From the NCBI GenBank assembly GCA_021807595.1, contig JAKBCS010000017.1, forward strand, positions 1 to 44,358: a DNA stretch of 44,358 nt, read 5' to 3'. Source of the stretch: Planctomycetota bacterium. GTDB taxonomy: Bacteria; Planctomycetota; Planctomycetia; Gemmatales; Gemmataceae. Below, one piece after another: positions 19,980-21,666 of the stretch. Every line of letters starts with the position of its first letter. Position 1 is the stretch's first letter. The notes under the pieces were generated by a model. The model made no database searches. It worked only from the letters and a program-made list of their open reading frames with translations, and had not been told where the DNA came from. Made by a program: the position numbers and the translations under genes.

Positions 19980-19993
19980 TCGTCGCTTCCTCA

Positions 19994-20072
19994 ATCGGCT
20001 ATCGGCTATCGGCTATCGTCATTGGGCCTTGGATCTTTTTGTATTGAGCAGATTGCCGAAAGCCGATAGCCG
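19994..20072. repeat. Short tandem heptamer with inverted partner, upstream of sucD
   Basis: Three direct copies of ATCGGCT fill 19994-20014 with a partial fourth to 20018. Twelve bases at 20061-20072 (AGCCGATAGCCG) are the reverse complement of two adjacent units, so a 12-bp hairpin can form in more than one register over a loop of about 50 bases. On the minus strand the tandem end abuts the GAGG of sucD and the other arm begins right after the efp stop. It may end efp transcription or shield the sucD start. Confidence 0.6.
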
Positions 20073-20075
20073 TTC

Positions 20076-20642
20076 TCACTTGGCTCGTCCGAGATACTCG
20101 CCGGTGCGGGTGTCGATGGATAGTACGTCGCCGATGCCCACGAACGGCGGCACACTAATTTTGAGTCCAGTTTCGAGGGTGGCCGGTTTGTATTGCGCCG
20201 CGGCCGTCGCGCCCTTCAGCGCGGGATCGGTTTCCGTCACGATCAACTCGACGGTGTTCGGCAATTCCAAGCTCAAAGGCTTGCCTTCGTGAAATACCAC
20301 CTTGGCGTCGTCGTTCTCTTTTAAGTACAACATTTGCTCGCCGATCCATTCTTTGCTCAGATGGGTCTGATCGAACGTCTCCTTGTCCATGAAGACGAAC
20401 TCGTCCCCTTCTCGATAGAGATACTGCATGGGCCGCGTTTCGAGGAACGCCTGTTCGACCTTGTCTTCCGGATGAACGCGCTTGTCGTTGACGAACCCTG
20501 TCTTGACGTTTTTCAGTTTGAGGCGCAGCTTGGACGGCAAGTTGCCGGGCGTCTTCAGATCGCGGTCCATAACTTGGAAGAGTTGCCCTTCTTCGACGAT
20601 AATCATGCCGCGACGAACTTCACTGTACGCAATCGATGCCAC
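20076..20642 (-). CDS. efp: Elongation factor P, copy 1
   Basis: A 188-residue EF-P with three beta-barrel domains: KOW-like (about 1-65), middle (about 68-128) and C-terminal (about 130-188, ending SVPPFVGIGDVLSIDTRTGEYLGRAK). EF-P relieves ribosome stalling at consecutive prolines. The tip loop reads LKTPGNLPSK, with Asn34 where E. coli EF-P has the beta-lysylated Lys34. The start is GTG at 20642 after GAGGG. A second efp lies directly upstream, 83 bases away, on the same strand. Confidence 0.95.
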   Translation of the reverse strand: MASIAYSEVRRGMIIVEEGQLFQVMDRDLKTPGNLPSKLRLKLKNVKTGFVNDKRVHPEDKVEQAFLETRPMQYLYREGDEFVFMDKETFDQTHLSKEWIGEQMLYLKENDDAKVVFHEGKPLSLELPNTVELIVTETDPALKGATAAAQYKPATLETGLKISVPPFVGIGDVLSIDTRTGEYLGRAK

Positions 20643-20725
20643 GTTCTTTGTCCCTCAATGTGTTAAGTAGTTCTATGACGTGCTGAACTCCGAGTGCCGC
20701 CTTTCTCAGCACTCAGAACTCACGA

Positions 20726-21298
20726 CTAATTCTTGGCCCTACTAAGGTATTCGCCGGTGCGCGTATCGACTTGCACGATTTCGCCAATGCTAATAAAGGG
20801 CGGCACCGTGATTTTGAGACCCGTCTCAAGGGTGGCCGGCTTGTACTGCGCGGCGGCCGTCGCGCCTTTGACCGACGGTTCGGTCTCCATCACTTTTAGT
20901 TCCACCGTGGCCGGCAACTCCAGGCTGATCGGCTTGCCGTCGTAAAAAGTCACTTGGGCGTCCTCGTTCTCTTTCAGATAGAGGATCATCTCACCGGCCA
21001 ACTCTTCGCTCAGCGTTACCTGATCGAACGATTCCTTGTCCATGAAAACGAACCCGTCGCTCTCTTTGTAGAGATACTGCATCGGTCGTTTGTCGAGATA
21101 CGCCAATTCGACTTTATCTTCGGGACGAAAGCGCTTCGGAGTAACGGCTCCCGTCTTCAGATTCTTGAGCTTGAGGTTGAGAATGGCGCGCCAGTTCCCC
21201 GGCGTGTTCAAATCGCGGTCGATGACCGAATAAAGCTGTCCATCGTCACCGACGATGACCATGCCCTTGCGAGCCTGGCTATAGTTGATCGTGGCCAC
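20726..21298 (-). CDS. efp: Elongation factor P, copy 2 (tandem paralog)
   Basis: A 190-residue EF-P, full length, clearly related to the neighbouring copy (shared PEDKVE, RPMQYLY, GATAAAQYKPATLETGLKI). Its tip loop is LNTPGNWRAI, again with Asn (residue 35) at the usual Lys position, and Trp-Arg instead of Leu-Pro after it. The start is GTG at 21298 behind AAGGAGAAG; the frame continues further upstream without similarity. The region between the two genes contains a low-complexity stretch. The two copies may recognise different stalling contexts; this is inference. Confidence 0.93.
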   Translation of the reverse strand: MATINYSQARKGMVIVGDDGQLYSVIDRDLNTPGNWRAILNLKLKNLKTGAVTPKRFRPEDKVELAYLDKRPMQYLYKESDGFVFMDKESFDQVTLSEELAGEMILYLKENEDAQVTFYDGKPISLELPATVELKVMETEPSVKGATAAAQYKPATLETGLKITVPPFISIGEIVQVDTRTGEYLSRAKN

Positions 21299-21666
21299 AT
21301 CTTCTCCTTGTTCGGATCGGTATCTATCCGGGTGGAGCCTCATCGTAAACCGTCAATGTAGCAAGTAAAGTCCGTCGTGAGAAGAGCGCTCAACTACGAG
21401 AGAATGGGGCCGCGTCTCGGCGACTGTAACGATTGTGCCGAATATACGCGGGCTGCCGTGGGCGGAGGTTGGGATTCGCCCCATCCACCCGGCGATCCGT
21501 TATTGTCGTTGCGAGCTACACGCCGAAAAAAGAGTCATGTTTCCGCGAGGTATGGCAGGCGGCGCGACCGATTCCCAAGAAGTGTGCCTTTCTCATGGAT
21601 GAGAGAGGGGCGGGATCGAATGCGACAAGTCCGTCGCCGTTCGCGACAGATAAGGAACGGATTCCC
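21299..21666. other. Divergent intergenic region, about 370 bases
   Basis: Lies between efp copy 2 (minus) and the secreted thioredoxin-fold gene (plus). Frames here are short and show no protein-like composition; the longest merely runs into the gene at 21667. AGGAACGG just before 21667 is the probable ribosome binding site. No promoter was clear enough to mark. Confidence 0.45.

Follow-up and report, generated by a model that had tools for sequence, protein, structure and literature searches.

Two adjacent asparagine-tipped EF-P genes in a planctomycete differ in the loop residues that follow the tip

Elongation factor P (EF-P) binds beside the P-site tRNA of proline-stalled ribosomes, and in Escherichia coli its beta3-beta4 loop is directed toward the CCA end. 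The window analyzed here, a 44,358-nucleotide contig of a planctomycete (JAKBCS010000017.1, assembly GCA_021807595.1), carries two EF-P genes whose loops both hold an asparagine at the position of Lys34, the residue that EpmA beta-lysylates in E. coli. This raises two questions: whether an EF-P with such a tip can work, and why one genome should keep two of them side by side.

The upstream gene, copy 2 (c2), occupies positions 20726 to 21298 of the minus strand and encodes 190 aa; the downstream gene, copy 1 (c1), lies at 20076 to 20642 on the same strand and encodes 188 aa. Each is an intact open reading frame with a GTG start, and the sequence 5' of each start contains a Shine-Dalgarno-like element on the minus strand (AAGGAG at 21304 to 21309 for c2, GAGGGA at 20651 to 20656 for c1). 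Against the EF-P equivalog model TIGR00038 they scored 217.8 (c1) and 225.1 bits (c2) over the full length, with a cut-off of 185.8, and all three Pfam EF-P domains (PF08207, PF01132, PF09285) were found in both. Together they make up the entire EF-P complement of the assembly (5.67 Mb, 282 contigs, 95.5% complete). An EF-P recorded from an uncultured planctomycete (L033) has identity values to c1 and c2 that equal those of the G037 protein, in matching order, which places the window in the planctomycetes. The two copies are 68% identical to one another, and both retain all 25 columns that are invariant across a set of 24 K34 and N34 EF-Ps. In comparison with the relative G003, dN/dS was 0.012/0.406 for c1 and 0.011/0.247 for c2, so strong purifying selection acts on both; the intact frames and low dN/dS rule out that either is a pseudogene. 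Two full-length EF-P genes had been predicted side by side, and this is what we find, arranged head to tail on one strand. By family membership both are bona fide EF-Ps, predicted to relieve stalling at polyproline.

We aligned the E. coli loop KPGKGQAF to TPGNLPSK of c1 (residues T31 to K38; codons at 20529 to 20552, minus strand, counted from the c1 start at 20642) and to TPGNWRAI of c2 (c2 residues 32-39; codons at 21182 to 21205, minus strand, counted from the c2 start at 21298). The alignment is ungapped and places asparagine on Lys34 in both copies; the residue is numbered N34 in c1 and N35 in c2 because c2 has one extra residue upstream, and E. coli numbering is used below. In the AlphaFold model of c1, whose mean pLDDT is 85, residues 31-37 form a loop of seven residues that joins two strands and has N34 at its center; the solved structures nearest to this model are EF-Ps, by TM-score including that of Corynebacterium glutamicum (6s8z, TM 0.88). 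As the loops are equal in length and no gap is necessary, a shift that would bring a lysine or arginine to the tip is ruled out. The assignment of asparagine to the modified-lysine position in both copies, on which the original prediction turned, is therefore upheld by the very alignment that might have overturned it.

How unusual is an asparagine tip in this lineage? We surveyed 102 genomes of the same order, 59 relatives, and 119 genomes spread over the phylum. An EF-P match was present in 94/102 genomes of the order, and the EF-Ps that we read there were N34 except for certain second copies, namely TPGTLPSK (G080), TCGRWQS (G066), and KTAQRKPV (G040 and G041). At the class level, Isosphaeraceae-like genomes were also N34, four other families had KPGKG, and a fifth (G048) had TPGKG. 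Across the phylum, 47/119 genomes from 30 families encode an N34 EF-P, which bears out the earlier surmise that TPGN tips are known in the PVC group as far as Planctomycetota are concerned. The asparagine tip is thus a lineage trait, the rule across much of the phylum and ordinary there, and because it is so widespread it is not the unusual part of c1 and c2. Such tips are also in the literature already, without a mechanism: they account for 2.2% of EF-Ps in organisms lacking the YjeA/YjeK (EpmA/EpmB) pair (PMC2821294), they were reported to carry Pro32 in every case (PMC6544042), and they are listed again in PMC11611912. A scan of genome contigs returned mainly Clostridia (K34) and few planctomycetes.

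It had further been claimed that, with neither lysine nor arginine at the tip, the known modifications cannot act on these proteins. For the lysine route this holds up well. The genome's own matches to EpmA all fell below the TIGR00462 cut-off, the best of them having the length of a full lysyl-tRNA synthetase, and no EpmA above the cut-off was found in any N34 relative searched. Among the 59 relatives, 10 had EpmA above the cut-off, and these were exactly the ones with KPGKG tips. The phylum sample gave the same picture: the best EF-P copy was K34 in all 21 of the 119 genomes with EpmA, none of their copies that we read was N34 (second matches of G142, G166, and G185 were left out), and EpmA was found in 0/47 N34 genomes. 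Even within a single family (f34), EpmA is present in three K34 genomes and missing from the N34 one. Moreover, the K34N substitution inactivates E. coli EF-P (PMC6544042), so asparagine cannot simply take the place of lysine in that route. The part of the claim that concerns EarP stays where it was, as the search gave 0 matches in the 59 genomes and was a weak one in which the control genomes were silent too. YmfI is a generic short-chain dehydrogenase, not distinguishable by a family search.

What accompanies the asparagine proved more telling. In the phylum sample, Arg36 was present in 42/43 of the best N34 copies versus 2/60 K34 copies, and Gly35 accompanied K34 in 60/60. The Asn-type loop can be written [T/A]PGN[W/L/K]R, where the first bracket is position 31 (Thr or Ala) and the second is position 35 (Trp, Leu, or Lys). 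Counted by family, N34 occurs with R36 in 29/30 and K34 with R36 in 2/36 (Fisher p = 3e-15, a value that serves only as a guide because families are only partly independent of one another). In a rough tree of the N-domain, made with the loop excluded and low in signal, the state at position 34 changed at least 13 times, which suggests that the phylum has repeatedly switched between asparagine and lysine. We found no description of the Asn34-Arg36 coupling in PMC2821294, PMC6544042, or PMC11611912. We read it as a sign that Arg36 probably compensates for the absent modified lysine.

Set against this motif, the two copies part ways. With N34, Thr31, Pro32, and Arg36, c2 is the standard Asn-type protein of its order. 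The unusual member is c1, which shares N34, Thr31, and Pro32 and lacks the arginine that is almost always paired with Asn34, having Pro36 and Lys38 in common with its clade. That clade comprises c1, its counterparts in G003, G102, G014, G030, and G020 (all TPGNLPSK), and the diverged second copies of G080 and G066; its support is 100/98, and 98/95 when residues 34-38 are removed (a tree from which G066 was left out), which rules out an artifact of the loop letters. A recent duplication within the genus is likewise ruled out, as c1 clusters with c1-type genes of other genera. When the six LPSK proteins were set against the order's remaining 81 Asn-type EF-Ps, the groups were separated, by the criterion used, at positions 35, 36, 37, and 38 and nowhere else; at position 36 the residue is Arg in 81/81 standard proteins and Pro in 6/6 LPSK proteins. 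The loop difference noticed originally (LPSK versus WRAI) is thus real, and it is old and consistent within the c1 clade. By sequence comparison, what is fixed in the c1 type appears confined to the part of the protein that enters the active region of the ribosome.

Members of this clade are rare and patchy, present in 8/102 genomes of the order. G020 has both a c1-type and a standard gene on separate contigs, with no tandem; in G030 and G014 the c1 type is the only EF-P detected, but both assemblies are drafts and may have missed a second gene. The copies of G066 (L174, TCGRWQS) and G080 (L205, TPGTLPSK) are fast-evolving second copies that fall with the c1 clade on long branches, and both genomes have a standard EF-P elsewhere.

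The tandem itself recurs in G003 (gap 18 nt) and G102 (gap 20 nt), which together with the window genome represent two genera, g1 and g57. The pairing therefore appears to be older than the split between them and ancestrally tight, with a gap of 18-20 nt. Co-transcription of c2 and c1 is likely in G003 and G102 because of this short gap, and the pair in the window is probably co-transcribed as well. Its spacer is longer (83 nt) because of a palindromic insert of about 65-70 nt at 20657 to 20725, delimited by an alignment of the three junctions and a break in blastn matches; it is missing from the G003 and G102 junctions, forms a strong predicted hairpin at roughly 20684-20722 (fold z = -2.25), and its arm word occurs once in the window. 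On the far side of c1, between sucD and c1 at 19989-20072, CGGCTATCGG repeats with an inverted copy form another strong predicted hairpin (z = -5.77), which could serve as a terminator or represent a mobile palindrome. A scan for promoters and terminators gave no informative signal. The neighborhood gives little support as a functional clue: sucD lies near the pair in the window, G003, and G102, but G001 and G002, of the same genus as the window genome, have c2 only, with different neighbors.

Where did c1 come from? It appears to go back to an old duplication in this bacterial family, or to a transfer inside it, and a few lineages have retained it. One can envisage that an LPSK gene moved horizontally among members of the family and became the neighbor of c2 in the forebear of g1 and g57, with no need for a duplication followed by many losses; the patchy distribution (8 genomes of the order) and the presence of both types on different contigs of G020 are what such a history would leave. 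However, for c1 and c2 alike the closest relative from another genus is in G102 (two long-branched copies aside), and this matching kinship, with a tandem common to g1 and g57, makes inheritance look vertical since then. A horizontal arrival is a credible origin, though we lean against it, and it concerns where c1 came from rather than what it does.

As to function, we favor the reading that c1 and c2 are two functional Asn-type EF-Ps that work without the known tip modifications, c2 being the standard form and c1 a loop-specialized one, and we put its probability at about one half. The Asn34 loop would then act without beta-lysine or its equivalents. In the standard form (TPGNWRA), Arg36 would supply a positive charge two residues after the tip; in c1, LPSK replaces WRAI, so that Arg36 is lost and a lysine is placed at 38. 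Because the fixed differences lie only in the loop, c1 would most likely bind the same ribosomal site and differ in the spectrum of stall motifs it relieves, or in strength. That K34N kills the E. coli protein implies that either Arg36 or some undescribed modification compensates in natural Asn-type proteins, a choice that sequence cannot make. If Arg36 were essential, c1 should be impaired, yet c1 is conserved, and the c1 type is the sole detected EF-P in G030 and G014.

A rival account is dosage or redundancy. The copies would then be interchangeable, their loops having drifted apart neutrally since the old duplication, and whether a lineage retains c1 would depend on chance or on a benefit from more EF-P. 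G001 and G002 manage without c1, and G030 and G014, with only the c1 type detected, make it seem that either type suffices; some lactobacilli also have two efp copies, for which differential expression was suggested (PMC11611912), although these belong to another phylum and no loop-specific Asn-type paralogue is described there. Drift, however, would scatter changes along the protein, whereas the fixed ones are four adjacent loop residues, the same in all six LPSK proteins across genera, and c1 is under strong purifying selection. We regard plain redundancy as unlikely, though not negligible.

Less probable still is that Asn34 or Arg36 carries a modification from an enzyme not yet described, with c1 as the unmodified or differently modified partner. 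Arg36 is near-invariant with N34, as a modified residue would be, and an uncompensated K34N is dead in E. coli; in addition, it has been speculated that DHS-like proteins might modify EF-P in certain bacteria whose tip residue is Lys or Asn (PMC6544042), and the window genome has a DHS-family gene. That protein, however, fits a homospermidine biosynthesis model (501.5 against a cut-off of 450) and falls below the cut-off of every deoxyhypusine synthase model listed, and DHS-family genes occur in 53/59 genomes with K34 and N34 alike, which disfavors a deoxyhypusine synthase as the modifier. Nor did a comparison of neighborhoods among relatives find a candidate modification enzyme conserved beside the pair, and neither loop contains an N-glycosylation sequon.

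Two functional Asn-type copies, the reading we favor, fit among known EF-P systems as follows. The fold in three domains, the loop length, and Pro32-Gly33 are shared with E. coli EF-P (37-38% identity), from which c1 and c2 differ at position 34 (Asn, not Lys), at position 31 (Thr, not Lys), at position 35 (Leu or Trp, not Gly), and in the lack of EpmA, so that neither has the Lys-type KPGKG loop. The Arg type, rhamnosylated by EarP, has Arg34 and a replaced Pro32, unlike both copies here. Like c1 beside c2, EfpL (YeiP) is a second EF-P-like protein in one genome, and it is described as working without tip modification (PMC11611912); c1 and c2, however, score below the EfpL/YeiP cut-offs (147-156 bits versus 216 for NF003392, 139-146 versus 264 for TIGR02178) and lack its two-residue loop extension. 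True EfpL-like copies, with tips resembling PSARGAATL, do occur in other planctomycetes. Among the Asn-type proteins already reported (PMC2821294, PMC6544042, PMC11611912), with an Asn tip, Pro32, and no EpmA in common, c2 is an ordinary member and c1 departs by having Asn34 without Arg36.

Two findings stand out: Asn34 is coupled to Arg36, and beside the standard copy sits an old paralogue that departs from this coupling and whose fixed differences are confined to the loop. Many bacteria have none of the known enzymes for modifying EF-P, and some EF-Ps are functional without modification (PMC11611912). The coupling points to Arg36 as a candidate residue, and c1 and c2 form a natural pair in one genome, without and with it. 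Should Arg36 prove responsible, much of the phylum would translate polyproline with no need for the modification on which most of the bacteria studied rely. Tentatively, much of Planctomycetota may use an EF-P that needs no modification, in which Arg36 replaces the modified Lys34, joined here and in a few relatives by a PSK-loop paralogue for other stall motifs; two unmodified EF-Ps would then divide the labor through the loop alone.

Several further variants emerged from the surveys. In four genomes of the order (G012, G025, G074, and G085; completeness 90% or more, contamination 5% or less) the EF-P C-domain had no match, possibly an assembly gap or a real loss. A divergent EF-P with the tip TRGNLRTY is the sole one found in 11 genomes of one family (f1; L141-L145, L203, L204, and L206-L209) and also in G170 of another family (L322); with Asn34, Arg36, and Arg32 in place of Pro32, it breaks the reported rule that Asn34 occurs together with Pro32 in 100% of cases. 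TPGKG loops, which combine Lys34 with Thr31 in the absence of EpmA (L140 in G048, L276 in G186, L252 in G130, and L337 in G145), may stand between the Asn and Lys types as intermediates or revertants. Finally, second EF-P-like N-domains with loops such as WNILKNDRRQFVQMKV and an Asp near the tip were found in G208 (L329), G123 (L330), G173 (L331), G220 (L327), and G168 (L339), and loops of this kind span at least three planctomycete families.
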